NCBI RefSeq assembly: GCF_023016525.1
Contig: NZ_JALKCG010000001.1
Coordinates: 1,116,001-1,180,000 of the forward strand
Source: Ancylobacter koreensis
GTDB lineage: Bacteria > Pseudomonadota > Alphaproteobacteria > Rhizobiales > Xanthobacteraceae
Reading direction: 5' to 3'
Length of the DNA: 64,000 bases
Shown: positions 10,309 through 26,578 of the stretch, piece after piece
Numbering within the stretch: the stretch's first letter is position 1
Layout: each line of letters begins with the position of its first letter
The notes under the pieces: generated by a model
The model's input: the letters and a program-made list of their open reading frames with translations, nothing else
What the model was told of the DNA's origin: nothing
The model's database searches: none
Translations under genes and position numbers: made by a program

Positions 10309-11166
10309 TCAGAACAGTTCAGGCACGTGATGACGCAGATCATCGGGCTCCACATAGCCGTCCGCCTTCTGGCGCTTGGGCAGCTTCACCTTCTCGCGCC
10401 TGGGCGCGACATAGGGCACCTTCGACAGGAAATGGGAGATGATGTTGAGGCGGGCGCGCTTCTTGTCGTTGGAATCGACGACGTACCAGGGCGCCCAGCC
10501 GCTGTCGGAAGCGGCGAACATGGCGTCGCGGGCACGCGAATAATCGTACCAGCGCCCGTAGGACTTCAGGTCCATGGGCGAGAGCTTCCAGGTCTTGCGC
10601 GGATCGTGGATGCGCTGCTCGATGCGCCGGGTCTGCTCTTCCGGGCTGACTTCCAGCCAGTATTTCAGCAGGATGACGCCGGAATCGATGACCGCCTTCT
10701 CCACCGCCGAGATGGTCGAGAGGAACTTCTCGGCCTGCTCCTCGGTGCAGAAGCCCATCACCCGCTCGACGCCGGCGCGGTTGTACCAGGAGCGGTCGAA
10801 GATCACGACCTCGCCCGCCGCCGGCAGGTGCGGCAGGTAGCGCTGGGCGAACATCTGCGATTTCTCGCGGTCGGTCGGGGCGGGCAGGGCAACGACGCGG
10901 AACACGCGCGGGCTCACCCGCTCGGTCAGCGCCTTGATGACGCCGCCCTTGCCGGCGGTGTCGCGCCCTTCGAACAAGATGCAGACCTTGGCGCCGGTCT
11001 CCTTCGCCCATTCCTGCAGATGCACCAGCTCGCCGTGCAGCCGCTTCAGCTCGGCCTCATAGGCCTTGCGCGAGAACTTCTCGCGCGGCGCCGGGGCTGC
11101 CGTCTCTTCGACCGCCGTTGAATCCGCGGCGTGATGACGGTTCTTCCTGTGATCCTTCGTGCCCAT
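10309..11166 (-). CDS. ppk2: Polyphosphate kinase 2 (PPK2, class I)
   Basis: A 285-residue PPK2 that transfers phosphate between polyphosphate and nucleoside diphosphates. Walker A is F-E-G-R-D-T-A-G-K-G-G (residues 65-75), Walker B is I-F-D-R-S-W-Y-N-R (122-130), followed by the lid-region A-G-V-E-R-V-M-G-F. Length and the single catalytic domain fit class I, which usually makes NTPs from NDPs or the reverse. The ~30-residue basic/acidic N-terminus is low complexity. A small unknown protein follows in the same direction. Confidence 0.93.
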   Translation of the reverse strand: MGTKDHRKNRHHAADSTAVEETAAPAPREKFSRKAYEAELKRLHGELVHLQEWAKETGAKVCILFEGRDTAGKGGVIKALTERVSPRVFRVVALPAPTDREKSQMFAQRYLPHLPAAGEVVIFDRSWYNRAGVERVMGFCTEEQAEKFLSTISAVEKAVIDSGVILLKYWLEVSPEEQTRRIEQRIHDPRKTWKLSPMDLKSYGRWYDYSRARDAMFAASDSGWAPWYVVDSNDKKRARLNIISHFLSKVPYVAPRREKVKLPKRQKADGYVEPDDLRHHVPELF

Positions 11167-11360
11167 GGCCCGACCCGCAAACCTTCCCGACACCTTCCCG
11201 GCCTCAGGTGGATTTGCCACCCTGCCAGCCGGACAGGCGACAGCCGCCCCCGCAGCCGTCCGGGCGCATGATACCGCAGCCGGTCGCGCCGCGCTGCATG
11301 CCGCCGACCCTGCTTCGTTGTTTTTCTTTGGTGCGCCGCGGCAAAGGCGCGCGAGCCCCC

Positions 11361-11993
11361 TCAGCGGGAGAAGACGCGCCCGAGTTCCTCGATCTGCCCG
11401 GCGGTGAGCAGCTGAGGGCGGCTGTCGCGCAGCAGGAACAGCAGCTTGGCGGTTTCCTCCAGCTCTTCGGCGGCATAGACGGCGGAGGCGAGGTCGGGAC
11501 CGGCGACGACGGGGCCATGATTGGCCAGCAGCACCGCCGCGCAGGCCCCGCCCAGCGCGCGGATCATGTCGCCCATGGCGGGGTCGCCGGGCCGGACATA
11601 GGGCAGCAGCCGCACCCGCCCCACGCGCATCACCACATAGGGCGTCAGCGCGGCGATGCAGTCGTCCGGGTCGAGGTCCGGCAGGCAGGACAGCGCGGTG
11701 GCGTAGGTGGAGTGCAGATGCACCACCGCGCCGGTGCCGGGCCGTGTCTCGTAGAGGGCGCGGTGCAGGAAGACCTCCTTGGAGGGCGCGTCGCCCGACA
11801 CGTGCCGCCCGTCCCGGTCGAGCTTGCAGATGCGCGCCTCGTCGAGGAAGCCGAGGCAGGAATTGGTCGGGGTGATCAGCCAGCCATCGTCGAGCGCGAC
11901 GCTGATATTGCCGGCCGAGCCGACGCAGTAGCCGCGCTCGAACAGCGAGCGGGCGAGGCGGACGATCTGCGCGCGGGCCGCCTCTTCGCTCAC
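11361..11993 (-). CDS. otnC: 3-oxo-tetronate 4-phosphate decarboxylase (class II aldolase/fuculose-aldolase fold)
   Basis: A 210-residue zinc enzyme of the class II aldolase/adducin family. Seen: substrate-phosphate segment S-A-G-N-I-S (26-31), catalytic Glu in S-K-E-V-F-L-H (E73), zinc ligands in V-H-L-H-S (H92, H94) and L-A-N-H-G (H159). Its 4-base overlap with the OtnK-like kinase gene is the diagnostic context: in the described acid-sugar pathway OtnC decarboxylates 3-oxo-tetronate 4-phosphate to dihydroxyacetone phosphate. On sequence alone it could be another sugar-phosphate aldolase. Confidence 0.85.
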   Translation of the reverse strand: MSEEAARAQIVRLARSLFERGYCVGSAGNISVALDDGWLITPTNSCLGFLDEARICKLDRDGRHVSGDAPSKEVFLHRALYETRPGTGAVVHLHSTYATALSCLPDLDPDDCIAALTPYVVMRVGRVRLLPYVRPGDPAMGDMIRALGGACAAVLLANHGPVVAGPDLASAVYAAEELEETAKLLFLLRDSRPQLLTAGQIEELGRVFSR

Positions 11994-13276
11994 GCCGCCA
12001 CCCTCCCGGCACCGGCGAGCGCGTCGAGGGCGCGAGCGAAGAAGTCCTCCCCGCCGAAATTCCCCGATTTCAGCGCCACGCCGAGGCCGCTGCCGTCCTC
12101 CGCGACCAGCACCGGCACGCCGGGGTCGATTTCCGGCCCGATGCGGAACGAGGTGACTCCGAGCGCGGTGACCACGGCGCCCGAAGTCTCGCCGCCGCCG
12201 ACGACGATGCGCCGCGTGCCAGCCGCGACGAGCACGCGCGCGGCCTCGCCGAACAGCGCGTCGAGCGCGTGGGCGACCGGCTCGCGGCCATAGGTCTCCT
12301 GCAGCGCGGCGACCCGGTCGGGGTCGGAGGAGGAATAGACCAATGGGCCGGCGCCGCGATGGGCGTCGACGAAGGCGACGATATCGGCGGGGCCGAGGCG
12401 CCCTTCCATCACGGCGTCGACGTCGACCGCCAGCACCGGATGGCCGGCGCGGTGGCGCTCGATCTGCGCGCGGGTGGCGCGCGAGCAGCTTCCCACCAGC
12501 ACCGCCTCGGCGCCGTCGACACCGTCCACGGCCGGCCGTCCGCCGCGCGCCAGCCCGGCGCGGATGAGGTTGCGCGGCAGGCCGCGCGCGATGCCGGAGC
12601 CGCCGGTGATCAGCCGTGCCTCGGCGCAGGCCTGCGCCAGCACCAGCAGGTCGTCATTGGAGATCGCGTCGGCGATGACGAGGCGCTCGCCCCGTCCGGC
12701 GGCTTCGGCCAGCGCGTCGCGCGTCGCCCCGGCGCCCTGCCGGATGACCGGCCAGCCGACCAGCCCGACCGGATCGGTGCTCTGGCGGGTGAGCCAGCGG
12801 CGCAGGTCCGGGTCGGTCATCGGGTTGAGCGGGTGGTGCTCCATGCCGGAATCGTTCAGCAGCCGGTCGCCGACGAACAGGTGGCCCATATAGACCGAGC
12901 GGCCGGCATCCGGGAAAGCCGGACAGGCGACGACGCCGAGCACGCCGAGCCGGCGCGCCAGCGCCTCGGCCACCGGCCCGATATTGCCTTCCGGCGTCGA
13001 ATCGAAGGTCGAGCAGTATTTGAAGACGATCTGCCGGCAGCCCTGCGCCAGCAGCCAGTCGAGCGCGGCGAGCGACTGGGCGACCGCTTCGCCTGCCGGG
13101 ATGGAGCGGCTCTTCAGCGCGATCACCCCCGCCTCGACGTCCGGCGCGGCCGGGTGCGGCGGCACGTTGAGGTACTGCACCGTGCGCAGCCCGCCTTCCG
13201 GCTCGACGCCCTTGGCGATGGTGTTGGCGATGTCGCTCGCCCCGGTGAAGTCGTCCGCAATGACGCCGATGATCAT
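11990..13276 (-). CDS. otnK: 3-oxo-tetronate kinase (DUF1537 four-carbon acid sugar kinase)
   Basis: A 428-residue ATP-dependent kinase of the DUF1537 family. The N-terminal domain has the signature I-A-D-D-F-T-G-A-S-D-I-A-N (7-19) and K-Y-C-S-T-F-D-S-T-P-E-G-N-I-G; the C-terminal nucleotide-binding domain has V-G-G-G-E-T-S-G-A-V. It should phosphorylate the 4-hydroxyl of 3-oxo-tetronate. The ATG at 13276 opens the conserved I-I-G-V-I-A-D-D-F strand; a longer frame upstream is not conserved in character. It is coupled to otnC by an ATGA overlap and lies downstream of the GntR regulator. Confidence 0.9.
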   Translation of the reverse strand: MIIGVIADDFTGASDIANTIAKGVEPEGGLRTVQYLNVPPHPAAPDVEAGVIALKSRSIPAGEAVAQSLAALDWLLAQGCRQIVFKYCSTFDSTPEGNIGPVAEALARRLGVLGVVACPAFPDAGRSVYMGHLFVGDRLLNDSGMEHHPLNPMTDPDLRRWLTRQSTDPVGLVGWPVIRQGAGATRDALAEAAGRGERLVIADAISNDDLLVLAQACAEARLITGGSGIARGLPRNLIRAGLARGGRPAVDGVDGAEAVLVGSCSRATRAQIERHRAGHPVLAVDVDAVMEGRLGPADIVAFVDAHRGAGPLVYSSSDPDRVAALQETYGREPVAHALDALFGEAARVLVAAGTRRIVVGGGETSGAVVTALGVTSFRIGPEIDPGVPVLVAEDGSGLGVALKSGNFGGEDFFARALDALAGAGRVAA

Positions 13277-13348
13277 CTCAATGCTCCGGTAGGCAGGTTC
13301 GTGTCGGCCTGCCGCGCCGGGCAGGGACATGCCACCGGCGCGCGCGGC

Positions 13349-14179
13349 TCACATGTCGGTCCTCTTCTGGAGCACGTCAACCATCTCCTTCAGGTCGCGC
13401 AGCATGGCCGGCACGCGGGCACCGCCCGCCGGGACCTGCTCCTCGCCCTCGGTGTGCACGAGGCGGTTGCGGGCGGCGACGATGTGGCGGCGCATCAGGA
13501 TTTCCGCCATCTGCCCGTCGCGCTCGCAGATCGCCTCGATGATGCGGATATGGTCGCGATAGGCCGGCACCTGATCGGGGCCGGTGGTGCGGTAGCGGCA
13601 CAGCCGGATCAGCGAATAGAGATCGCCGCACAGCAGCCGCTTCAGCAGGTAGGAGCCGGCGCCCTTGGCGATTCGGTAATGAATATCCTCGTCGCCGAAG
13701 GCCTGCGGGTAGATCCGCCCCTCATGGCTGGCGAGGTCGAGATGGTCCTGCAGCAGCGCCTTGAGGCGGACCAGTTCCTCCTCGCTCATGCGCTCGGCGG
13801 CGAGCCGGGCCGCCAGCCCTTCGAGCACCTCGCGGATCTCGTAGATCTCGGCGAGGTCGGAGTTGGAAAGCTCGACCACGCGCACGCCGAGATGGGGCAG
13901 GCGCACCACGAGGCTGCCGCCCTCCAGCCGGCGCAGCGCCTCGCGCAGCGGGCCGCGGCTCACTCCGAAGCGGGCCGCCAGCGTCTCCTCGCCGAGCTTG
14001 GTCCCCATCGGGAGCTTGCCGCTGACGATTTCGAATTCCAGCTCGCGGAAGATGCGGTCGGAGCGCGTCGTGTTGTCTGGCGTGAGCATGGGTACGGTAT
14101 CCGAGCTTGCTGTCAGCAATCTAGAGGCCCGGTCCATACGGTCAAAGCGTCCCTTTGGCGGCAGGGTGCGCGTGTTCAT
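13349..14179 (-). CDS. GntR-family regulator, FCD subfamily
   Basis: A 276-residue regulator, counting from the ATG whose bases overlap the stop of the upstream dehydrogenase gene (ATGA). The winged helix-turn-helix covers about residues 40-105 (G-V-S-R-G-P-L-R-E-A-L-R-R-L-E), followed by a helical FCD effector domain with metal-type residues (I-R-E-V-L-E-G-L, D-x-x-I-H-Y-R-I). An alternative ATG at 14089 would remove 30 unconserved residues; neither start has a strong ribosome site. It sits inside the acid-sugar operon and is the likely reader of the TTGT-N2-ACAA sites at 16.1-16.2 kb. Confidence 0.9.
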   Translation of the reverse strand: MNTRTLPPKGRFDRMDRASRLLTASSDTVPMLTPDNTTRSDRIFRELEFEIVSGKLPMGTKLGEETLAARFGVSRGPLREALRRLEGGSLVVRLPHLGVRVVELSNSDLAEIYEIREVLEGLAARLAAERMSEEELVRLKALLQDHLDLASHEGRIYPQAFGDEDIHYRIAKGAGSYLLKRLLCGDLYSLIRLCRYRTTGPDQVPAYRDHIRIIEAICERDGQMAEILMRRHIVAARNRLVHTEGEEQVPAGGARVPAMLRDLKEMVDVLQKRTDM

Positions 14180-15144
14180 GTCACGACATTCCGCGGCGCG
14201 CCGCGCCAGAAGAGGTTGATATTCTCGACGAGCTGGTCGGCGAGGCTCTGGATCGCCTCGCGGCTCGACCAGGCGACGTGCGGCGTCAGGATGAAATTGT
14301 CATGCGCCAGCAGGCGCATCATCACATGTTCGCGCGGAGGCGGCTCGACGGTGGCGACGTCGAAACCGGCACCGGCGATGCGGCCGCTCTCCAGCGCATC
14401 GGCGAGCGCCTCCTCGTCCACGAGGCCGCCGCGCGCGGTGTTGATGATGAGCGGGCGGCATTCCATCAGCGCGAATTCGGCCGGGCCGATCATGTTGCGC
14501 GTCGCCGGCGTCAGCGGCGCGTGCAGGGTGAGGATGTCGGCGCGCCGCAGCACCTCCTCGAAGGGGGTGTAGAGCGGCCCCATGCCCTCGACGCCCTTGT
14601 AGGACGCATAGAGCGGGATCATGCCGAAGGCCCGCCCGATGGCGGCCACCGCCTGGCCGATCACCCCGTCGCCGAGGATGCCGAGCACCGCGCCGGAGAG
14701 GTCGTGCACGGGATAGTCGAAATAGGAGAACTGGTTGGTCTCGATCCAGCGGCCCCGGGCGACGGAGCCGCGATAGGCCAGCAGGCTGCGGCGCAGCGCG
14801 AGGATGAGCGCGAAAGTGTGCTCGGGCACCGTGTTGATCGCGTAGTTGCGGATGTTGGAGACGACGATCCCGCGTGCCCGGCAGGCGGCGAGGTCCACCA
14901 CGTCGTAGCCCGTCGCCGCGACGGCGACGCATTTCAGCCGGTCGGCACCCTCGATGACATGGGCCGGCAGCCGCACCTTGTTGGTGACGACGATGTCGGC
15001 CCCGGCGATGCGCCCGGCCACCTCGGCATCCGTCGTGGAATCGTAGCTGCGCCATTCATGCTCGAAATCGAGCCTGGGCAGGATGATCTCGGGCGGCAGG
15101 GTCTCGCGGTCGAGAAAGACGACCACCGGCGTGTGGTGTGACAA
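14176..15144 (-). CDS. D-isomer-specific 2-hydroxyacid dehydrogenase (glycerate/hydroxypyruvate type)
   Basis: A 322-residue NAD(P)-dependent oxidoreductase. The Rossmann motif G-I-L-G-D-G-V-I-G-Q-A lies near residue 155, the catalytic Arg is in N-T-A-R-G-G-L-V-D, the catalytic Glu follows in the V-E-P-P-P-R segment, and the catalytic His is in L-T-P-H-V-A-W. It may interconvert a 2-oxo acid and a D-2-hydroxy acid of the four-carbon sugar pathway, or reduce hydroxypyruvate. It is coupled to the downstream gntR gene and lies 78 bases after the isomerase gene. Confidence 0.88.
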   Translation of the reverse strand: MSHHTPVVVFLDRETLPPEIILPRLDFEHEWRSYDSTTDAEVAGRIAGADIVVTNKVRLPAHVIEGADRLKCVAVAATGYDVVDLAACRARGIVVSNIRNYAINTVPEHTFALILALRRSLLAYRGSVARGRWIETNQFSYFDYPVHDLSGAVLGILGDGVIGQAVAAIGRAFGMIPLYASYKGVEGMGPLYTPFEEVLRRADILTLHAPLTPATRNMIGPAEFALMECRPLIINTARGGLVDEEALADALESGRIAGAGFDVATVEPPPREHVMMRLLAHDNFILTPHVAWSSREAIQSLADQLVENINLFWRGAPRNVVT

Positions 15145-15222
15145 GGAAGTCTCCGCAAAAAGACGCGACGGCAGAGAGGATCAACCGTCGCGCTGAAAGT
15201 TGAGCCGGAAAGGCCGCTGGGC

Positions 15223-16044
15223 TCAGGCGACGGCTTCGCCGAGCTCGGCCAGCTTCTCGCGCCCCTCGATCATGTCCTGAAGGGTGCCGAAGGCGTTCAT
15301 GTAGTGGCCCTGGAAGCCGAGCTCGTCGAGCCGGCGGAACAGGTAGGGGAAGTCGAAGTCGCCCTCGCCCGGCCGCAGGTGCTCTTCCTTGCCGTTGCGC
15401 CAGCAGTCGGCGAGGCGCACCTCGTCGCAGCGCTTGATGTCGAAAGCTTCGAGGAAGGCGTCGACACCGTCCTCGACGATGTGGGCGTGGTTGGCGGTGA
15501 AGGCCCAGCGCAGCTTCGGCGAGTCGAGCCGGTCGAAATAGTAGCGGGTCTCCTCGACATTGTGGGCGAGGTAGTGGACCTCGGCGTCGTCCGGCTCCCA
15601 GTTCATGTTCTCGAACAGCAGCGTGAGGTCGATCTTTTCGGCATAGTCGGCCAGGCGCTTGATGCGCTCGACGCCGGCTTCCATGCGCAGCTTGACGTCG
15701 GAGGTGAAGTGATAGCCGGCATGGATGACCATCCATTCGCCGCCGAGCCGCTTGCACGCGTCCATGTGGGTGATGAGATAGCGCTCCACGCCATCGCGCA
15801 CGTCCGGCGCGTATTCGGCCATGTTGACGGCGGACATGGTGTGGATGCCGACATGGATGCCGTGCGCGTCGCAGGTGTCGCGAATGCCCTTGACCCGCTC
15901 CGCGGTCAGCGTCTCGATCGCGTTGGGCGCCACGTCGATCTTGAGGTCGAGATACTTGATGCCGTGCTGGACGGCGGCGGCGAGCCCATCCTCGATCTTG
16001 TTGCGCTGGCCGAGGTCGACTCCGATCCGATCCCGCAAGTTCAT
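15223..16044 (-). CDS. Sugar phosphate isomerase/epimerase-type TIM barrel (OtnI-like)
   Basis: A 273-residue xylose-isomerase-like TIM barrel. Barrel strands are visible as I-K-Y-L-D-L-K, H-V-G-I-H-T, E-W-M-V-I-H-A-G-Y, L-T-L-L-F-E-N-M-N-W and L-R-W-A-F-T-A-N-H, with the metal/substrate Glu in F-E-N-M-N. AAGGGAG precedes the ATG at 16044. By context it is the best candidate for the 2-oxo-tetronate to 3-oxo-tetronate isomerase step. It is the first gene of the minus-strand operon that continues through the dehydrogenase, gntR, otnK and otnC. Confidence 0.8.
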   Translation of the reverse strand: MNLRDRIGVDLGQRNKIEDGLAAAVQHGIKYLDLKIDVAPNAIETLTAERVKGIRDTCDAHGIHVGIHTMSAVNMAEYAPDVRDGVERYLITHMDACKRLGGEWMVIHAGYHFTSDVKLRMEAGVERIKRLADYAEKIDLTLLFENMNWEPDDAEVHYLAHNVEETRYYFDRLDSPKLRWAFTANHAHIVEDGVDAFLEAFDIKRCDEVRLADCWRNGKEEHLRPGEGDFDFPYLFRRLDELGFQGHYMNAFGTLQDMIEGREKLAELGEAVA

Positions 16045-16087
16045 GTCTGCTCTCCCTTTGTCGAGCCGACTGCTGTCCACGACGGCC

Positions 16088-16102
16088 CGTTGTTGACAAT
16101 GA
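16088..16102. promoter_or_regulatory. Predicted GntR/FCD operator, copy 1
   Basis: CGTTGTTGACAATGA; the core TTGT-TG-ACAA is a two-sided repeat of the type bound by FCD-subfamily GntR proteins. It lies about 44 bases upstream of the isomerase operon start and is identical over 15 bases to copy 3. Confidence 0.65.
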
Positions 16103-16130
16103 CCGGGAAAAAAGCACCGACCTTCCGACA

Positions 16131-16139
16131 TGTCAACAA
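16131..16139. promoter_or_regulatory. Predicted GntR/FCD operator, copy 2 (inverted)
   Basis: TGTCAACAA is the reverse complement of the TTGTTGACA core of copies 1 and 3. It abuts and partly overlaps the LacI-like palindrome at 16138-16155, so the two regulators may compete here. Confidence 0.5.
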
Positions 16140-16155
16140 TGGCACCGCTGCCATT
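16138..16155. promoter_or_regulatory. Predicted LacI-family operator
   Basis: AATGGCACCGCTGCCATT is an 18-bp inverted repeat with a single mismatched pair. Its TGGCA-N4-TGCCA arrangement and CGC centre match the perfect palindrome next to the lacI-type gene at 23589-23604, suggesting that one LacI protein acts at both places. Confidence 0.65.
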
Positions 16156-16212
16156 CTGCGCTGCGCCGCAAAAACGGTCGAACGTCGCTAAAAATCGTCA
16201 TCTTCCGAAATT

Positions 16213-16227
16213 CGTTGTTGACAATGA
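16213..16227. promoter_or_regulatory. Predicted GntR/FCD operator, copy 3
   Basis: An exact 15-base repeat of copy 1 placed 125 bases further on, closer to the plus-strand dehydrogenase gene. Having copies near both divergent transcription units fits joint control of the two operons. Confidence 0.65.
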
Positions 16228-16339
16228 GACTGAGGGTGCGAGGCTTGGCTCCGGAAACGCACGTCCGGTGCAAACAGGCGCCGGCATCGCCATAGGGCTC
16301 GGCAGGCGACGTCAGATCGCTGCGGCCCGGGGAGGAGCA

Positions 16340-17281
16340 ATGAAGGTCGGTTTCGCCGGCCTCGGCGCCATGGGCGCGCCGATGGCACATAATCTCATCA
16401 AGGCCGGTTTCTCGCTGACGGTGCATTCGCGTCGCCGCGAATCCGCCGAGCCGCTGCTGGCCAAAGGCGCCGAATGGGCCTCGACGCCGCAGGAACTCGC
16501 CCAGCAGTCCGACATCGTGCTCACCAGCCTGCCCGACCCCGCGACCGTCGATGCGGTGATGGACGGCGAGACGGGCCTGCTCGCCGGGCTGCGGCACGGG
16601 AGCTGCTTCATCGACCTGTCGACCAATGCGCCCGCCTCGGTGCGCAGCCTGTCGCAGAGACTGGAGGCGCATGGCATCGGCATGCTGGACGCCCCGGTCA
16701 GCGGCGGCCCGAAGGGCGCGGCCTCCGGCAAGCTGGCGATCTGGGCCAGCGGCAGCCTCGCCGCCTTCGAGACCAGCCGGCCGGTGCTGGAAGCCATGGG
16801 CGACCAGGTGCGCTTCCTCGGCGAGATCGGCAACGCAACCGTCGCCAAGCTGGTGCACAACTGCGCCAACTACACGATCAACCTCGTGCTGGCGGAGGTG
16901 TTCACCCTCGGCGTGAAGGCCGGCGTGCCGCCGCTCGAACTTTTCGCGGCCGTACGGCAGGGCTCCCTCGGTCGCCAGAGCACCATCGACCGGCTGGCCG
17001 ACCACTTCTTGCCGGCGCTTTTCGAGACGCCCTCCTTCGCGCTGAACCTCGCGCACAAGGACGTGGCGCTCGCCACCGGGCTGGCGCGCGACGTCGGCGT
17101 GCCGATGCGGCTGGCCAATCTCGCCTACGCCGAAATGACGGAAGCCCTCAACCGCGGTTGGGGCGCCAATGATTCACGCTCGGCCATGAAGCTCCAGACG
17201 GAGCGGGCCGGGGTGGAGATCGAGGTGCCGCAGGAGAGCCTGCGGGCCCTGATCAAGAACGAGCCGCTCGACCGGCGCTGA
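16340..17281 (+). CDS. 3-hydroxyisobutyrate dehydrogenase-family NAD(P)-dependent oxidoreductase
   Basis: A 313-residue beta-hydroxyacid dehydrogenase. The N-terminal Rossmann motif is G-F-A-G-L-G-A-M-G-A-P-M-A (about 4-16), the substrate-binding D-A-P-V-S-G-G-P-K-G-A block is near residue 120, and the catalytic Lys is in A-K-L-V-H-N-C-A-N-Y. GGAGGAG lies 3 bases before the ATG, a strong ribosome site. It heads the plus-strand operon with the transporter and DUF849 genes and faces the acid-sugar operon, so a sugar acid such as threonate or erythronate is a likely substrate. Confidence 0.88.
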   Translation: MKVGFAGLGAMGAPMAHNLIKAGFSLTVHSRRRESAEPLLAKGAEWASTPQELAQQSDIVLTSLPDPATVDAVMDGETGLLAGLRHGSCFIDLSTNAPASVRSLSQRLEAHGIGMLDAPVSGGPKGAASGKLAIWASGSLAAFETSRPVLEAMGDQVRFLGEIGNATVAKLVHNCANYTINLVLAEVFTLGVKAGVPPLELFAAVRQGSLGRQSTIDRLADHFLPALFETPSFALNLAHKDVALATGLARDVGVPMRLANLAYAEMTEALNRGWGANDSRSAMKLQTERAGVEIEVPQESLRALIKNEPLDRR

Positions 17282-17342: not shown

Positions 17343-18320
17343 ATGGCAACTCGCATTGCGTGCACTTTTGCAGCTCTCGCCTCGCTCGCGGCTGTCGCCG
17401 CGGCCGGGCCGGCCCTCGCCGCCGACAAGATCGCCTATCCCGTCACGACAGGCACGATGATCATGCAGTCGAGCCCCGGCTCCGGCGGCGACCTGTTCCT
17501 GCGCGCGGTGGCCGACGCTGCGAACCGCCAGATCGGCGCGAACTTCGCGGTCGAGAACGTGACCGGCGGTTCCGGCGCCAAGGCGATGGCGCTGCTCGGC
17601 AAGAGTCCCGGCGACGGCAGCATGCTGATGGGCGTCTCGCCCACCTATGTGAACACCTCGCTGCTCAGCAAGCCGCCGGTGAGCTACACCGACCTGCAGC
17701 CCATTGTCCGCCTGTTCCTCGACTCGGTCATCGTCGTGGTGCGTGAGGACAGCCCCTACAAAACGCTGAAGGACGTGATCGAGGCGGCGAAGAAGGCGCC
17801 GCATTCGGTGAAGGTCGCGGTGGGCGAGCCGGGCGGGCTCGAAACCCAGACGATGATCGAGCTGATGCAGAAGACCGGCACCCAGCTCACCGTCATCAGC
17901 CATGACGGCGGCGGCGACGCGCTGCTGAGCGTGCTCAACGGCACCGGTGACATGGCCATCGGCGAGGCGGCCGAGCTGAAGAGCCAGCTCGACGCCAAGC
18001 AGATCCGCCCCATCGCCGCCTATACCGAGGCGCGCATCGCCACCTTCCCCGACCTGCCGACCGCGCGCGAGCAGGGCATCGACATGGTGGTGCAGAAGTT
18101 CCGCGGCATCATCGGCCCGAAGAACGTCTCTCCCGAAGTCATCAAGGCGTGGGAGGCCGCCGTTCCCAAGATGCTGAACGATCCGGCGTTCAAGAAATGG
18201 TACGAGGAAGGCGCTCTCATCCCGGCGTTCCAGCCTCATGACCAGTTCGAGGCGTTCATCGACAATTTCGGCGCCAAGCAGAAGCAGTTCTTCCTCGACA
18301 ACAACATGATCAAGGGCTGA
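17343..18320 (+). CDS. Bug-type solute-binding protein of a tripartite tricarboxylate transporter (TctC family)
   Basis: A 325-residue periplasmic binding protein. The signal peptide is clear (A-A-V-A-A-A-G-P-A-L-A-A-D). The mature protein has the Bug pattern: P-G-S-G-G-D near the start, V-E-N-V-T-G-G-S-G-A-K-A-M, and T-F-P-D-L-P-T-A-R-E-Q-G-I-D-M towards the end. It should capture a carboxylated compound and deliver it to the TctA/TctB pair that follows at 26 and 19 bases spacing. Given the neighbouring enzymes, a C4 sugar acid is a plausible ligand. Confidence 0.92.
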   Translation: MATRIACTFAALASLAAVAAAGPALAADKIAYPVTTGTMIMQSSPGSGGDLFLRAVADAANRQIGANFAVENVTGGSGAKAMALLGKSPGDGSMLMGVSPTYVNTSLLSKPPVSYTDLQPIVRLFLDSVIVVVREDSPYKTLKDVIEAAKKAPHSVKVAVGEPGGLETQTMIELMQKTGTQLTVISHDGGGDALLSVLNGTGDMAIGEAAELKSQLDAKQIRPIAAYTEARIATFPDLPTAREQGIDMVVQKFRGIIGPKNVSPEVIKAWEAAVPKMLNDPAFKKWYEEGALIPAFQPHDQFEAFIDNFGAKQKQFFLDNNMIKG

Positions 18321-18346
18321 CGCCCGGACGTCGGGAGGAGTACGAC

Positions 18347-18865
18347 ATGCTCACGAGAATCGTCACCGGCCTCGCGCTGATCGTCCTGTCGGGTCTCTAC
18401 TGGCTGCAGGCGGACGCCATACCCCAGAGCCCGATGAGCGGAAGCGTCGGCGCCGACGGACTGCCCAAGCTGCTGGCTCTGGTGCTCTGCGGGCTGTCGC
18501 TCATCTTCGTCGTGCAATCGATCCTGGTGCGGCAGCCCCTTGCCGCACCAGGCATCCCCGAAGACGACCAGGACGAGGACGACGCCGCCTTCACGCGGCG
18601 GGGCCACGTGCTGGCGGGGGCGCTGCTCGCCATCTCCATCGTCTACTCGGTGATCCTGCCCTATGCCGGCTACACCGTGGCGATGGGCTTCCTGCTGCTG
18701 GCGGTCGGCGTCTTCTACCACCGCCGCATGAGCGCGGGGATCGCGACCTTCGCCATCCTCGGTGCCGTCGTCTTCCACCTCATCTTCATCACGCTGCTCG
18801 GCGTGCGGATGCCCGAGGGCATCTGGCCGAACGTCCTTGCTTTCCTTCACGCCCACACCGCGTGA
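18347..18865 (+). CDS. Tripartite tricarboxylate transporter small membrane subunit (TctB family)
   Basis: A 172-residue protein with four hydrophobic segments (starting near residues 4, 38, 83 and 140) separated by an acidic loop (E-D-D-Q-D-E-D-D-A), the usual TctB shape. GGGAGGAG precedes the ATG. It partners the large TctA subunit in sodium- or proton-driven uptake. It is flanked by the binding-protein and TctA genes in the normal C-B-A order. Confidence 0.9.
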   Translation: MLTRIVTGLALIVLSGLYWLQADAIPQSPMSGSVGADGLPKLLALVLCGLSLIFVVQSILVRQPLAAPGIPEDDQDEDDAAFTRRGHVLAGALLAISIVYSVILPYAGYTVAMGFLLLAVGVFYHRRMSAGIATFAILGAVVFHLIFITLLGVRMPEGIWPNVLAFLHAHTA

Positions 18866-18884
18866 CCGGACGGAGAGACCGCAA

Positions 18885-20393
18885 GTGACCAATCTCTATT
18901 ACATCTGGGAGGGGCTCACCTCCCTGCCGATCCTGCTCGCCGCCATGGCCGGCGTGCTGTGGGGCATGTGCGGGGGTGCCCTGCCGGGCATCTCGACGGC
19001 GATCGCCATGTCGCTGGTGCTGCCCTTCACCTATGGCATGGACCCCTCGGCGGCGCTGGTGCTGCTGGGCGCCATCTATATCGGCTCGGAATATGGTGGC
19101 TCGATCCCGGCCATCCTGATCCGCACCCCGGCATCGGGCTCTTCCGCCGCCACTGTCGTCGACGGCTATGCCATGCAGCGCCAGGGGCGGGGCGGCGAGG
19201 CGCTTGGCCTGTCGCTGGTCGGCGGCACCATCGGCGGCTTCGTCGGCCTTCTGCTGCTCAGCCTGCTGACCCAGCAGCTTTCCAAGGTGGCGCTGTGGTT
19301 CACGCCGCCGGCCTATTTCGCGCTCGGCATCCTCGGCATCAGCGTGATCGCCTCGCTGTCGGAGCGCAACGTGATCCGGGGGCTGATCGCCGGCGTGCTC
19401 GGCCTCATGGTGGCGACCATCGGCACCGACCCGGTGTCCGGCGTGATGCGCTTCACCTTCGGCTATCCCGAGCTGATGGGCGGCGTGCCGGTCATCATCG
19501 TGATGATGGGCGTGTTCGCTGTCACCGAGCTGATGATCCAGGCGCGCGAGCGCGACTACTCGGAAGACGTCACCGAACGCTCGACGCGGCTCAAGCTGCC
19601 GAGCCTGAAGAAGCTGTGGAGCCTGCGCGTCCCGCAGATCATTGCCATCGTCTTCGGCACCATTGAGGGCCTGACGCCGGGCGGTGGCGGCTCCATCGCG
19701 GCCTTCATGTCCTACAACGAGGCCAAACGCTGGTCGAAGGAGCCGGAGAAGTTCGGCAAGGGCTCCGAAGAAGGCGTCATCGCGCCCGAGACCGCCAACA
19801 ATGTGGTGGCCCTGACCGCGCTCATCCCGACGCTGAGCTTCGGCATTCCCGGCACGGCGACCGCGGCCATCCTGCTCGCCGCGCTGCTGATCCACGGCCT
19901 GCATCCCGGCCCGAACCTGTTCACCAGCCATCCCGAAGTCGTCTACCAGCTCTTCAGCGGGCTCTTTCTCGCCAATCTCGGCATGTTCGTGTTCGGCCTC
20001 ATCATCCTCAGCCCGATCATCTGGCTGGTGAACCGCCCGCGCGCCTATCTGCGCGCCGGCATCTTCGGGCTGATCTTCTCCGGCATCTATTCGGTCAATG
20101 GCAGCGAGTTCGACCTCTATCTCGTGATGGCCATCGGCGTGGTCGGCTACCTGCTGCGCTCGCTGCGCTTCCCCTTCCTGCCTTTCGTCCTCGCCGTGGT
20201 GCTTGGCTACATGATCGAGGCCAATTACCGCCGGTCGCTTCTCATCACCAATGGCGACCACATCGTGTTCCTGCAGAACCCGATCAGCGTCTGCCTGCTC
20301 GCGCTCTCCGCCCTCTTCATCGTGCTTCCGCTCTACCGGCAGTTCCGGCAGCGGCGCCGGTCGTCACAAGCCGCCCATCCTCAGCAGCCGTGA
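18885..20393 (+). CDS. Tripartite tricarboxylate transporter large permease subunit (TctA family)
   Basis: A 502-residue permease with about 11-12 hydrophobic segments. Family landmarks are visible: G-A-L-P-G-I-S-T-A-I-A-M near residue 30, A-I-Y-I-G-S-E-Y-G-G-S-I-P-A-I-L, and the second G-L-T-P-G-G-G-G-S repeat followed by P-E-T-A-N-N-V and P-T-L-S-F-G-I-P-G. The start is taken as the GTG at 18885, which gives the usual short N-terminus and follows GGAGAG. Its last codons overlap the start region of the DUF849 gene. Confidence 0.92.
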   Translation: MTNLYYIWEGLTSLPILLAAMAGVLWGMCGGALPGISTAIAMSLVLPFTYGMDPSAALVLLGAIYIGSEYGGSIPAILIRTPASGSSAATVVDGYAMQRQGRGGEALGLSLVGGTIGGFVGLLLLSLLTQQLSKVALWFTPPAYFALGILGISVIASLSERNVIRGLIAGVLGLMVATIGTDPVSGVMRFTFGYPELMGGVPVIIVMMGVFAVTELMIQARERDYSEDVTERSTRLKLPSLKKLWSLRVPQIIAIVFGTIEGLTPGGGGSIAAFMSYNEAKRWSKEPEKFGKGSEEGVIAPETANNVVALTALIPTLSFGIPGTATAAILLAALLIHGLHPGPNLFTSHPEVVYQLFSGLFLANLGMFVFGLIILSPIIWLVNRPRAYLRAGIFGLIFSGIYSVNGSEFDLYLVMAIGVVGYLLRSLRFPFLPFVLAVVLGYMIEANYRRSLLITNGDHIVFLQNPISVCLLALSALFIVLPLYRQFRQRRRSSQAAHPQQP

Positions 20394-20413
20394 ATACAAG
20401 GAAAGGAAACCCT

Positions 20414-21337
20414 ATGGTCCCCGCGATCTCCAACAAGAAGTTCATCATTCTGGCGCGCGTCAACGAGTACAAGATGCGCGACAAGAACCCTCACATCCCC
20501 TTCACCCCCGACGAGATCGCCGACGCGGCGGTGGAGTGCGAGGCAGCGGGCGCGGCGATCATCCATTTCCACGCCCGCACCCCGGACGGCGGCAAATGCT
20601 ACGATCCCGAAGTGTATCTGGAGATCGCCCGCAAGATCCGCGAACGCACCAGCCTCATCATCGATTCGACGCTGGGCCAAAACACGATCAAGGGCGACGA
20701 GGCGCGCTCGGCGCATATCGTGAAGATGGGCGAGGACCCCGATGCGCGCGCCGACATGGCGGCGATCGACGTGGGCAGCACCAATCTCGACGTCTACGAC
20801 TACGAGACGAAGCAGTTCGAGACCACGGACCACACCTATGTGAACACGGTGAAGACCACCATGTTCCTGGCCGAGCGCATGCACGCCAACGGCATCCGCC
20901 CGCATCTGTCGTGCTGGACCATCCCGTTCCTGCGCCAGACCGACGCGCTGCTCGACATGGGCGTGTTCAAGGAGCCGGGCTTCATCCAGCTCTGCTTCTG
21001 CGAGGGTGGCATCGTCGGCGGCCACCGCTGCACCACGGACGAGGCCATGGCCTATATCCGCGCCATGCCGACCAGCAAGAAGGTCGAGTGGACCTGCAAC
21101 TGCAAGGAAGGCAACCTGCTGCCGGCCGCCACCCTCGCCATGGAACTGGGCGGCCACATCTCCATCGGCATCGGCGACTACGAATATCCCGAGCTCGGCT
21201 ACCCCACCAACGGCCAGCTTGTTAAGTTCTTCGCCGATCTCGCCCGTGGCTACGGGCGTCCGATCGCGACGCCGGCCGAGGCGCGCGAGATGCTCGGCCT
21301 GCCGGCGCAGGAGAAGCGCATCACCCGCGCCGCCTGA
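20414..21337 (+). CDS. DUF849 beta-keto acid cleavage enzyme (BKACE)
   Basis: A 307-residue TIM-barrel, metal-dependent enzyme. The family condenses a beta-keto acid with acetyl-CoA to give acetoacetate and a new CoA thioester. The metal-binding I-I-H-F-H-A-R motif is near residues 47-53, the substrate-region D-S-T-L-G-Q and the late G-D-Y-E-Y strand are present. AAGGAAAGG precedes the ATG at 20414; a GTG at 20390 would overlap the tctA stop. Its place behind a sugar-acid transporter is unusual, and it may act on a 3-oxo acid derived from the imported compound. Confidence 0.88.
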   Translation: MVPAISNKKFIILARVNEYKMRDKNPHIPFTPDEIADAAVECEAAGAAIIHFHARTPDGGKCYDPEVYLEIARKIRERTSLIIDSTLGQNTIKGDEARSAHIVKMGEDPDARADMAAIDVGSTNLDVYDYETKQFETTDHTYVNTVKTTMFLAERMHANGIRPHLSCWTIPFLRQTDALLDMGVFKEPGFIQLCFCEGGIVGGHRCTTDEAMAYIRAMPTSKKVEWTCNCKEGNLLPAATLAMELGGHISIGIGDYEYPELGYPTNGQLVKFFADLARGYGRPIATPAEAREMLGLPAQEKRITRAA

Positions 21338-22533: not shown

Positions 22534-23532
22534 TCAGGCCGTCGCGCCCTCGATCAGGATGAAGCCGAGGTCGACCGTCGCGGCGGGCTCGTCCGCAAGC
22601 GCGAGGCGTGCCGCCTCGCGGCCGATCTCCACGCGCGGTGTCAGTATGGTGGCAAGCGGCTGCGGCGCGAGGCGCGCCACGTCCAGCCCGTTGAAGCCGA
22701 ACAAAGCGAGGCGTTCGGGAATGGCGATGCCGCGCGCGACGCAGTGGAAGTAGCCGCCGATCGCCATGTCGTCATTGGAGAAATAGACCGCGTCGAGCGC
22801 CGGCGCGCGCGCCAGCAGCCGCTCCAGCCCGTCGCGCCCGGCGCCGATGGAGGAGGGGCCGGCGTGCAGCTCGCGCGCGACCAGCGCGAGGCCGTGCCGC
22901 GCCAGCTCCGCCTCGAAGCCGGCCAGCCGCTTGCCCGCGCGCGTGTCGCGGGAAATCTCGTGGCCGACATAGCCGATGCGCCGGTAGCCGCGGCCGATGA
23001 GATGGCGGGCGCTCGCCTCCGCCGCCGCGCGGTTCGAATAGCCGACAACAATGTCGAGCCCCTCGCCGTCGACATCGAGCATCTCGACCACCCGCGCGCC
23101 GGAGGAGCGCAGCCTGTCCGGCGTCGCCCGCTCATGCTCCAGCCCGGTGATCATCACCGCGGCCGGGCGCCAGGCGAGCATGGAAGCGACAAGCTCGGCC
23201 TCGCGCGCGCCGTCATAGTCGCTCACCCCGATCACCGCCTGGTAGCCCATCAGGTCGAGCTGGCCGGCGGCGCCGCGCAGCAGATCGGGAAACACGATGT
23301 TGGTCAGCGAAGGCACCACGATGCCGACCACGCGCGAGCCGGCCGCCGCCAGCGTGCCCGCGATGCGGTTCGGCACATAGCCGAGCGCCGCCACCACCTG
23401 CCGCACGCGCGCGCGCGTCTCCTCCGACACCGAGCCGCTGTTGCGCAGCACGCGCGACACCGTGCTCTCGCCGACGCCCGCGGCGGCGGCGATGTCCGAC
23501 AGGCGAAGTGATGGAAAGTCCTTCCGGGTCAT
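22534..23532 (-). CDS. LacI-family transcriptional regulator
   Basis: A 332-residue repressor-type regulator. The N-terminal DNA-binding domain is canonical (L-R-L-S-D-I-A-A-A-A-G-V-G-E-S-T-V-S-R-V, then the hinge R-I-A-G-T-L-A), followed by a periplasmic-binding-protein-like sensor domain. It is divergent from the LtnD-like gene, with a perfect TTGGCAGCGCTGCCAA palindrome between them. A closely similar palindrome upstream of the acid-sugar operon suggests that it is a local regulon controller responding to a sugar acid or its intermediate. Confidence 0.92.
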   Translation of the reverse strand: MTRKDFPSLRLSDIAAAAGVGESTVSRVLRNSGSVSEETRARVRQVVAALGYVPNRIAGTLAAAGSRVVGIVVPSLTNIVFPDLLRGAAGQLDLMGYQAVIGVSDYDGAREAELVASMLAWRPAAVMITGLEHERATPDRLRSSGARVVEMLDVDGEGLDIVVGYSNRAAAEASARHLIGRGYRRIGYVGHEISRDTRAGKRLAGFEAELARHGLALVARELHAGPSSIGAGRDGLERLLARAPALDAVYFSNDDMAIGGYFHCVARGIAIPERLALFGFNGLDVARLAPQPLATILTPRVEIGREAARLALADEPAATVDLGFILIEGATA

Positions 23533-23588: not shown

Positions 23589-23604
23589 TTGGCAGCGCTG
23601 CCAA
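23589..23604. promoter_or_regulatory. Predicted LacI-family operator between lacI-type gene and ltnD
   Basis: TTGGCAGCGCTGCCAA is a perfect 16-bp palindrome with a central CG step, the classic form of LacI/GalR-family operators, placed between divergent lacI-type and ltnD-like genes. Confidence 0.8.
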
Positions 23605-23649
23605 TGCGTGCAAACCTTCATCATCGACACGCGTAAGGGCGGCCCGCAC

Positions 23650-24546
23650 ATGGAAATCGCAGTCATCGGTCTCGGCTCCATGGGGCTCGGCATGGCGTGC
23701 TCGCTGCTGCGCGCGGGGTTTTCCGTCACGGGTTGCGATCCCGTCGCCGCGCAGGGCGAGCGGCTGGCGGGCGAGGGCGGGCGGGTCGCCGCGACGCCAG
23801 CGCAGGCCTGCGCGGGGGCGGATCTGGCGGTTCTCGCCGTCATCAACGCCGCGCAGACCGAGGCCGTGCTGTTCGGCGAGGAAGGGGCGCTGACGGCGCT
23901 GGCCGAGGGCGGCGTGGTGATCTCCTGCGCCACCATGGCGCCGGAGGCGGCGCGCCGGCTCGCCGAGCGCACGGCGGCGGCCGGCTGCCACTATCTCGAC
24001 GCACCGATGAGCGGGGGCGCGGCCCGCGCGGGCAGCGGCGAGCTGACCTTCCTCGTCTCCGGCGGCGGGGCGGGGCTGGACAAGGCGCGGCCGGCGCTGG
24101 AGGCGATGTCCGCGCGCATCTACGAGCTTGGGGAGGAGCCCGGTACGGGGGCGGCGTTCAAGATGATCAACCAGCTGCTTGCCGGCGTGCATATCGCGGC
24201 GGCCTGCGAGGCGATGGCCTTCGCCGCCCGGCAGGGGCTCGATCTGGCGCAGGTCTATGAGGTCATCTCCAACTCGGCCGGCAATTCCTGGATGTTCGGC
24301 AACCGCGTGCCGCACATATTGGCGGGCGACTACACGCCGCTGAGCGCGGTCGACATCTTCGTGAAGGATCTCGGCATCGTGCAGGAGATGGCGCAGTCGG
24401 CACGTTTCCCGGTGCCGGTGAGCGCGGCGGCGCTGCAGATGTTCCTCGCCACCTCCGGCGCCGGCATGGGCCGCGACGACGATGCCTCCCTCGCCCGCCT
24501 CTACGCCCAGATCGCCGGCGTCGAGTTGCCCGAAGCGATGCCGTGA
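23650..24546 (+). CDS. ltnD: L-threonate dehydrogenase-like oxidoreductase (3-hydroxyisobutyrate dehydrogenase family)
   Basis: A 298-residue NAD-dependent dehydrogenase. Rossmann motif G-L-G-S-M-G-L-G-M-A (7-16), the D-A-P-M-S-G-G block near residue 119, and the catalytic Lys in F-K-M-I-N-Q-L-L-A-G-V-H-I, a segment typical of LtnD-type enzymes. It should oxidise L-threonate to 2-oxo-tetronate, the entry step of the OtnI-OtnK-OtnC pathway encoded upstream. The ATG at 23650 gives the conserved I-A-V-I-G-L-G start. It is probably repressed through the LacI operator just upstream. Confidence 0.8.
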   Translation: MEIAVIGLGSMGLGMACSLLRAGFSVTGCDPVAAQGERLAGEGGRVAATPAQACAGADLAVLAVINAAQTEAVLFGEEGALTALAEGGVVISCATMAPEAARRLAERTAAAGCHYLDAPMSGGAARAGSGELTFLVSGGGAGLDKARPALEAMSARIYELGEEPGTGAAFKMINQLLAGVHIAAACEAMAFAARQGLDLAQVYEVISNSAGNSWMFGNRVPHILAGDYTPLSAVDIFVKDLGIVQEMAQSARFPVPVSAAALQMFLATSGAGMGRDDDASLARLYAQIAGVELPEAMP

Positions 24547-24859: not shown

Positions 24860-26578
24860 ATGCCGGATTTGTTTATTTGTTATTCGGCCAAGGACAGAGA
24901 GCAAATACGCCCCATCGTCGCAGCATACCGACGTGCCGGCCTCGATGTTTGGTGGGACCAGTGCCTGGAGGAAGGGGATTGGGGCCCGCAAATCGAAGCA
25001 GCCCTGAAGGGTGCGCGGCGTGTGCTGGCCTTTATCACGCCCTATGCTGTCCGTTCTGAAAATCATTTCATTGTAGCCGAAATCGCTCAGGCGCATCTCG
25101 CCGGCAAGCTCATACCGGTGAAGGTCGGCGAATTCGAGATTCCCTATATCATCCAGGGATACGTTTTCGGCAAGCAGATGGCGCTCGTGAGCGATTTCGA
25201 GGCTTTCGTTCGCGGGCCGGATTTCGAGCGGGTATCCAGCATTTTATCGAGGGTGAGCGGAGCAGCCGCTGCGCCCGAAGCGAATCCAGCGAGCGAACTG
25301 GTCGATCAATATGCCGACCCCGCGAGCCTCGCCCTGGCCCTCGCAGTGGCGGTTGCGGAGAACGCGCCCCTCGCGGCGATCACTGAAATTGCGGAAGATC
25401 TGGAGCGGCGGTTCACCAAGCTGATCGCCCCTGCCCCGACAGAGACCGGGGGGCAGCCTTTCTCGGCGTTTCTGCAGAGTAACGCGCGGCGCTTGCAGGG
25501 CATCAGCGCCGAAATCCATTATCGCAAGCACCGGCGCTACAACACGAATGTCGAATGCGTCCGTTTCACGGATTCCGAGCGTGCGGCAAAGCTGCTGGAG
25601 CGTGTCTGGCGCGAGCTTGACGGGTTACGTCCTACGCTGATCGAGTGGCTGGACCATCTGTCCCACACGGCCAGTGCGCCGTTGCGCCAGCGCATTGCAC
25701 TGGTGCTCGGCGTCTTGGCGCGGACGCCGGCGACCTTCGGCTCGGTCTATGATGGGCTGTTTGATCGATGGATCGTCCATGAGGGAGCCGCCGCCCGCGA
25801 ACTTGTGGATCTGGCCCTGTGCTTCGTGGTGCTCGACAAGCGGTTGGAAGCGACCATAAGCCAGCGTGTCCGCGAGTATGCGAGAAGCCAACGTCCCGAT
25901 CGGTTGCGCGCGGCGATCGAGCTGGCCTGCGGCTTCACCGGCTCGCGCATTCAGGGGCTTCCGGTCGAAATCCTCAAGACGGTCGCCCAATCTCGGCACA
26001 AGGACTTCAAGGTGCTGAAAGCCATGGACGACGCGATCACCTTCATGATCGCGTCGAGCGGCGAGAGGGACGATGCGAGCCTGCTCGACTGGCCCCGGCT
26101 CATCAACGACCTGTCGGACTGGGCGCGGAGCCCGGATCAGCGGACTCCGCAACGTCTGCCAATGTATCTTTTCCTCAGCCTGATGGGAAAGATGTCGCTC
26201 CGTTCCCACCCGAGCGTTGCCGGGGTTCTCTCGCTTGAGGCTCTGGTCGAGGCAGATGCGCAGTCGTTCGAGCGGTCTGTGTCGGTGCTTGAGCCGACCG
26301 CGAGAGTCTTCGAGGCGGCGCTCCGTGATCCGGGAGACGAAGAGTTCCGGCCGCGCGACGCCGCTCTCGCGATCCTCAAGGACTGGATCGCAACGAAGCC
26401 AACGGCGACCGCCGTCGATCCGCTTCTTACCCTGCTTCGAGAGATCCATGCCGCTTGCCCAACGACGCGGGACCGAGATCGCCTGATCTACGCCGTGCGC
26501 AGCCGATATGAGCGGGAGCAGATTTCCGTAGGTGGCAGGGCGCCGGCTCCGGCTATCGTCGAAAGGGGCGTCGCGTGA
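24860..26578 (+). CDS. TIR-domain protein with long helical C-terminal region
   Basis: A 572-residue cytoplasmic protein. Residues 1-130 form a TIR domain: strand A L-F-I-C-Y-S-A-K-D (4-12), V-W-W-D-Q-C-L-E-E-G-D-W (30-41), L-A-F-I-T-P-Y-A-V-R-S-E-N-H-F-I-V-A-E-I, and L-I-P-V-K-V. The usual catalytic Glu position just before L-x-x-G reads Cys35, with Glu37/Glu38 next to it, so NADase activity is uncertain. The remaining ~430 residues are helical and HEAT-like in rhythm, without recognised motifs. It heads a plus-strand group with SPFH-like and membrane proteins. Codon use is less GC-biased than the flanks. A defence or signalling role is inferred. Confidence 0.8.
   Translation: MPDLFICYSAKDREQIRPIVAAYRRAGLDVWWDQCLEEGDWGPQIEAALKGARRVLAFITPYAVRSENHFIVAEIAQAHLAGKLIPVKVGEFEIPYIIQGYVFGKQMALVSDFEAFVRGPDFERVSSILSRVSGAAAAPEANPASELVDQYADPASLALALAVAVAENAPLAAITEIAEDLERRFTKLIAPAPTETGGQPFSAFLQSNARRLQGISAEIHYRKHRRYNTNVECVRFTDSERAAKLLERVWRELDGLRPTLIEWLDHLSHTASAPLRQRIALVLGVLARTPATFGSVYDGLFDRWIVHEGAAARELVDLALCFVVLDKRLEATISQRVREYARSQRPDRLRAAIELACGFTGSRIQGLPVEILKTVAQSRHKDFKVLKAMDDAITFMIASSGERDDASLLDWPRLINDLSDWARSPDQRTPQRLPMYLFLSLMGKMSLRSHPSVAGVLSLEALVEADAQSFERSVSVLEPTARVFEAALRDPGDEEFRPRDAALAILKDWIATKPTATAVDPLLTLLREIHAACPTTRDRDRLIYAVRSRYEREQISVGGRAPAPAIVERGVA

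Follow-up and report, generated by a model that had tools for sequence, protein, structure and literature searches.

Putative GntR and LacI operators in the gap between two divergent operons of Ancylobacter koreensis

The gap of about 295 bp (16045-16339) separating two divergently oriented sugar-acid operons in a 64,000-nucleotide stretch of the Ancylobacter koreensis genome (hereafter the window) is quite probably a control region, combining GntR autoregulation of both operons with a LacI operator for the threonate-type genes otnK and otnC. This view is built on the sites themselves, their conservation, the co-occurrence of sites with regulators across genomes and the gene layout. The circuit is an ordinary kind of bacterial gene switch and an instructive case of apparent rewiring: operator motifs can be proposed for two regulators, and the locus offers a before/after comparison of how a promoter is rewired when genes join an operon.

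Organization of the locus

The minus-strand operon begins with a TIM-barrel (xylose isomerase-like) gene at 15223..16044 (Pfam PF01261), followed by a D-2-hydroxyacid dehydrogenase family gene at 14176..15144, assigned by profile matches, and the FCD-GntR regulator gene at 13349..14179 (Pfam GntR PF00392, 57.3 bits, and FCD PF07729, 74 bits). Next come otnK, for 3-oxo-tetronate kinase, at 11990..13330 (NF043035, 534.3 bits against a cut-off of 350), where the coordinates are those of the listed ORF and the true start may lie further in, and otnC, for 3-oxo-tetronate 4-phosphate decarboxylase, at 11361..11993 (NF043034, 311.5 bits, cut-off 250). On the plus strand, the operon opens with a 3-hydroxyisobutyrate dehydrogenase-like gene at 16340..17281, also assigned by profile matches. 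It continues with tripartite carboxylate transporter genes at 17343..20393 that have homologues in the loci of relatives, a gene for a BKACE (beta-keto acid cleavage enzyme) at 20390..21337 (PF05853) and a gene for an AbrB-type membrane protein. By sequence resemblance, the transporter genes are presumably tctC, tctB and tctA; the TctC-like protein had no NCBIfam match at 1e-20.

Beyond the plus operon lies a convergent gene for a LacI-family regulator of the gluconate GntR/IdnR-like type (22534..23532, minus strand, by profile matches). Divergent from it is ltnD, for L-threonate dehydrogenase (23650..24546, plus strand; NF043037, 424.3 bits, cut-off 350), with the score computed on the ORF at 23608-24546 and the start placed at the ATG at 23650. 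All three members of the threonate/erythronate set ltnD, otnK and otnC lie above the NCBIfam curated cut-offs, as in L-threonate/D-erythronate clusters (ltnD-otnK-otnC); unlike in those clusters, otnK and otnC stand apart from ltnD and lacI, behind gntR. No OtnI was found above the cut-off among the ten window proteins profiled, the TIM barrel at 15223 reaching 35.8 bits against 325. According to the available text of PMC10580937, the regulator of the Brucella threonate/erythronate cluster is a DeoR-family protein. No paper dealing with both Ancylobacter and threonate was found in a literature search.

Further along the plus strand, 24860-26578 encodes a protein of 572 amino acids with the N-terminus FICYSAKDREQ..., for which there was no NCBIfam match at 1e-20 and whose start we take to resemble a TIR/SEFIR-type domain.

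GntR-type sites and their conservation

The motif TTGTTGACA occurs three times in the window, each time in the gap, at 16090-16098 (plus strand), 16131-16139 (minus) and 16215-16223 (plus). In 100 shuffled windows it averaged 0.11 copies and never reached three, and the 4.06 Mb genome holds six copies in total. The two plus-strand copies have 15 bases in common, CGTTGTTGACAATGA, and both are perfect TTGTNNACAA dyads, while the inverted copy, TTGTTGACAT, carries one mismatch. The sequence-only reading had described three copies, one of them inverted and two identical over 15 bases, that match a TTGT-N2-ACAA FCD-GntR site; this description holds, with the dyad perfect in two.

These sites are treated below as putative GntR operators. 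Operator 1 (TTGTTGACAA, 16090..16099, plus strand) precedes the isomerase gene by about 46 bp, and the centre of operator 2 (TTGTTGACAT, 16130..16139, minus strand) is 40 bp away. Operator 3 (TTGTTGACAA, 16215..16224, plus strand), with its centre 85 bp from that of operator 2, precedes the dehydrogenase gene by about 116 bp. For FadR-subfamily (FCD) GntR operators, the available text of PMC4494728 gives 2-nt spacing as a published variant, found for GntR, HpxS, HypR, MdcY, PrpR and UxuR. The TTGT-TG-ACAA sites at 16090 and 16215 consist of inverted TKGT/ACMA boxes within the published distance of 2 or 3 nt, and the site at 16130 does so with one mismatch. The TKGT/ACMA boxes, the 2-nt spacing, the multiple sites and the divergon with the regulator gene in one of its operons are all as in that subfamily. 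Unlike its known operators, sites of the window's type are nearly always TG-centred (17 of 18), and here there are three of them. Among the titles listed for a literature search with TTGTTGACAA or its complement, none points to a paper on a bacterial regulator for this site.

The protein search for this GntR covered 101 genomes, own included. Orthologues at 80-81% identity were found in two others, G025 and G022, each of which also encodes a 61-62% paralogue. A scan of a named genome collection, which used two peptide patterns only, gave a metagenome-assembled genome with GntR relatives at 72 and 57%, plus one 30% match elsewhere. Copies of TTGTTGACAA recur in the divergent gaps of both orthologues, of the 72% metagenome relative and of the 57-62% paralogue loci. 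The gap of L031 (G025) has three copies, the middle one in the same one-mismatch form as in the window; L032 (G022) has two, and L077 (the 72% metagenome relative) has three perfect ones, with TTGTTGACAA at the middle position too. Paralogue loci L033 and L034 have four TTGTNNACAA each, half of them in the divergent gap and half between gntR and BKACE, with one dyad of L033 in the TTGTCGACAA form, and L079 has one. Site centres are 40 and 85 bp apart in the window, 42 and 85 bp in L031 and 42 and 120 bp in L077; the wide pairs of L032, L033 and L034 are spaced by 118, 127 and 128 bp. The site set comprised 18 sites picked by TTGT..ACAA, with the centre left free and TG in 17 of them, and two one-mismatch middle sites picked by TTGTTGACA. 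When the window was aligned with L031, its closest relative, 30 of 30 positions in the three GntR sites were identical, against 122 of 252 outside (Fisher p = 2.5e-9). The GntR half of a motif search in relatives, which had been put forward as a check, accordingly finds the sites conserved upstream of the orthologous operons (L031, L032 and L077).

As a specific mark, TTGTNNACAA alone was rejected: at least one TTGTTGACAA is present in 85 of the 101 genomes, so a single copy means little. With one mismatch allowed, TTGTTGACAA has 29 forward and 38 reverse matches in the genome (control, 8 and 7), and because such matches are this common the middle copy counts only by its place and conservation. 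Pairs of TTGTNNACAA 100-130 bp apart were found in 5 of 391 family genomes and, for the reversed control, in none. Three of the five are known carriers of this GntR, carriers being known only for those genomes that were within the 101 searched for the protein. The 3.1 kb fetched for the other two, G053 and G193, held no homologue (E up to 1e-5) of 14 window proteins. Among other FCD-GntR loci, 5 of 27 have a TTGTNNACAA, which in three takes the TTGTCGACAA form, and ten threonate loci without this GntR showed no TTGTNNACAA in 151,010 bases. The telling features of the GntR sites are clustering, the TG centre and conservation only.

Several related loci came to light. The paralogous locus (L033, L034 and L079) combines the 57-62% GntR with a TIM barrel and TctA/TctC, and in L033 and L034 with BKACE; it makes up another set of operons for this regulator subfamily. 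In L005, L006 and L012, TTGTCGACAA dyads lie near the start of genes for FCD-GntR proteins 40-45% identical to that of the window, which suggests a sister motif. Elsewhere in the A. koreensis genome, at C11:253632 (L035 1133), TTGTTGACA precedes a further FCD-GntR gene by about 30 bp, and a TctC-like gene comes after that gene. Another genomic copy falls inside an ORF (L071), and another precedes a gene that we take to be hydrolase-like (L072).

LacI-type sites and their distribution

A near-perfect palindrome of the TGGCA-N4-TGCCA type had been noticed in the gap, and it is indeed present: TGGCACCGCTGCCA at 16140..16153, which extends to AATGGCACCGCTGCCATT at 16138-16155, centred on CG and with a single pair broken. 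This putative LacI-family operator adjoins GntR operator 2 and is located 96-109 bp upstream of the start of the isomerase gene. It agrees with the form found in relatives at 13 of 14 positions, the single mismatch falling in the left half. A second putative operator, absent from the sequence-only reading, is the perfect TGGCAGCGCTGCCA at 23590..23603, between lacI and ltnD. TGGCANCGNTGCCA has two matches in the whole 4.06 Mb of the genome, in the gap and at 23590-23603, and its reversed control has one. Palindromes of the LacI-like type with up to one mismatch number four in the window, a count reached in 13 of 100 shuffles, so that simply as a palindrome the site in the gap is not rare.

According to the available text of PMC4052901, LacI-family operators typically have a central CG and lie 140-30 bp ahead of the start; both sites here are even palindromes with central CG, TGGCAGCGCTGCCA perfect and TGGCACCGCTGCCA with its one broken pair. 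The even CG-centred palindrome and the T(V/A)SR helix are shared with local regulators of the gluconate GntR/IdnR type, as are a site within 140-30 bp of a start and a site beside the regulator's own gene. Unlike the gluconate type, the window's LacI goes with a threonate-type gene set, and unlike for LacI-family local regulators its second operator lies 7.4 kb away in a GntR-controlled gap. No paper with the operator sequence TGGCAGCGCTGCCA was found in a literature search.

Matches to LacI at E up to 1e-50 were present in 28 of the 101 genomes, and 20 lacI loci were examined. In all nine loci in which LacI is at least 58% identical (own included), TGGCA-N4-TGCCA stands upstream of lacI, in four of them twice. 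In L046 (LacI 51%) TGACA-N4-TGTCA occurs twice, and L045 (52-53%) has a weaker TGACAACGTTATCA. The other nine of the 20 have neither exact form; six of these show other CG-centred dyads, the one in L054 being TGACAGCGCTATCA, downstream of lacI. Across genomes, the perfect 14-mer TGGCAGCGCTGCCA is found in 12 of 101, namely in 9 of 9 with a LacI at least 58% identical against 3 of 92 others (G002, G010 and G056; p = 1e-10). The reversed 14-mer, by chance, is found in 14 of 101 (3 of the 9 and 11 of the 92). For 14 of the 20 loci the recognition helix was read. TGGCA is paired with ES or MS before T(V/A)SR in nine loci, and TGACA with EI in two loci only, one of whose sites is weak. In the LacI family, two residues of the recognition helix set two operator bases, according to the available text of PMC2978694; with the residue numbering mapped by us, the pairing seen here appears in line with that code.

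In G064 (L070 4219-4232 and 7176-7189), the LacI operator occurs at two promoters in a setting without threonate genes, once before a dihydroxy-acid dehydratase gene and once between lacI and the gene for an ABC transporter ATPase.

Proposed joint control by GntR and LacI

In the mechanism that we propose, the local FCD-GntR would bind the three TTGT-TG-ACAA operators, a pair spaced by 40 bp on the side of the minus operon and a third 85 bp further on, towards the plus operon, at near whole-turn spacings. It would thereby autoregulate the divergent pair, most likely repressing both operons until a ligand appears. LacI would probably control lacI and ltnD from 23590 and, from 16140, otnKC along with the other minus-operon genes, so that threonate-type control is added. 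Binding, repression, ligands and mutual exclusion at the abutting sites are all inferred. One prediction is that the beta-keto-acid and threonate pathways are co-regulated in this organism.

The inverted GntR copy had been said to touch the LacI-like site, and the cores at 16130-16139 and 16140-16153 do abut, with their centres 12 bp apart. Because the cores lie side by side on neighbouring dyads, GntR operator 2 and the LacI operator are unlikely to be occupied together, which would amount to mutual exclusion. On this geometry, competition between the two proteins is plausible. It is rather unlikely, in our estimate, that both proteins bind independently and without competing, with each acting chiefly on one of the divergent operons. 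Operon-specific sites are often found in FadR-subfamily divergons with two sites (available text of PMC4494728), and GntR operator 3 does stand apart from the two on the isomerase side; against this, a distance of 12 bp between centres would, on structural grounds, hardly allow two dimers to sit on neighbouring dyads.

The exact TGGCA-N4-TGCCA was found in none of the three orthologous GntR gaps (L031, L032 and L077), and in the alignment with L031 the LacI site is identical at 8 of 14 positions, against 122 of 252 outside (Fisher p = 0.59). In the LacI half of the motif search, the motif is conserved upstream of the orthologous lacI genes (9 of 9) and, in its exact form, missing from the orthologous GntR gaps. 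The suggested joint control by GntR and LacI is supported by these comparisons, in which both site-regulator assignments pass, and with the LacI site missing from the orthologous gaps it looks lineage-specific.

The placement of otnK and otnC bears on this point. In A. koreensis the only otnK match found is the one in the minus operon, with otnC, behind gntR. In the eight relatives with a LacI at least 58% identical, ltnD and otnK share the 15-16 kb stretch of lacI in seven, and otnC does so too in six; the eighth is G064. In the 19-21 kb fetched for the orthologous GntR loci of G025, G022 and the metagenome relative, otnK-otnC is absent. The window's otnK is 45-49% and its otnC 53-60% identical to the LacI-linked copies of relatives; among themselves, with the divergent G022 and G094 set aside, those copies are 61-92% (otnK) and 83-99% (otnC) identical. 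The window's ltnD is slightly further off (66-70% to the LacI-linked set against 69-97% within it) and its lacI hardly so (59-67% against 55-98%). Relatives without a match at 1e-30 were left out of these identities, namely G064 for LtnD, OtnK and OtnC and G005 for OtnC. Matches to otnK at 1e-120 occur in 68 of 397 genomes of the order, own included, with closer relatives at up to 66%. Eleven such loci were fetched; otnC adjoins otnK in each, and neither the GntR-type nor the LacI-type operator was found in their stretches of 4.3 kb each.

A LacI operator is present in the GntR gap only where its presumed targets, otnKC, have joined the operon, and this merged layout is known from one genome. 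The best reading of these comparisons would be that a GntR-autoregulated divergent pair gained a LacI operator when the threonate genes joined it, and the rewiring of the gap is apparently recent. A fuller version, which we hold only tentatively, is a recent regulatory capture in which a divergent otnK-otnC pair ended up behind gntR, after which the promoter acquired the LacI operator, with either repressor blocking the same site. Were this so, both ligands would be needed for full expression, and the promoter would act as an AND gate of two mutually exclusive repressors.

As the LacI site is not conserved in the orthologous gap, it could also be a chance match (about 5e-4 for the gap at the control's density), so that only the GntR circuit would be real; this we judge to be unlikely. 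The site does differ by one mismatch from the form in relatives, and in the genome up to one mismatch to TGGCAGCGCTGCCA is found at three places against seven for the reversed control, so that a LacI-like site alone is not proof. Of the three places, however, two lie in intergenic gaps of this locus, and the third is coding, within a sigma-54-activator ORF (its N-terminal part). In the relatives L038, L042 and L043, too, perfect operators are accompanied by one-mismatch ones, and the site in the gap lies where a LacI site would be expected, given its otnKC target.

Promoter-like and terminator-like signals

No convincing sigma-70 promoter was seen in the gap, and a stricter scan finds none there. 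A candidate weak promoter for the minus operon may be formed by TTGACA inside operator 2, a 17-bp spacer and TTTTTT (16108..16136, minus strand), the hexamer being TCTTTT in the L031 counterpart. Such a promoter would place operator 1 immediately downstream of the start and the LacI site immediately upstream of the -35 element. That the TTGTTGACA copies are -35 promoter elements and not operators is very improbable and was rejected on the strict scan and the -10 hexamer counts: TTGACA is the sigma-70 -35 consensus, a T-rich hexamer follows the middle copy at 17 bp in the window and L031 alike, and a -10 hexamer of at least 4/6 follows 3 of 19 copies (16%, the background rate being 7% of positions), but the other 16 lack one, the mean best score is 2.5 against 2.0 for background, the copies lie in both orientations and the full TTGT..ACAA dyad is conserved.

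Within 11000-16100, four terminator-like sites were counted on both strands (2.0 expected), and the three on the minus strand are all inside genes. A promoter-like site inside gntR (14145-14118, minus strand) scores 9/12, with 0.4 expected in the same region, and might drive otnKC separately from the gap.
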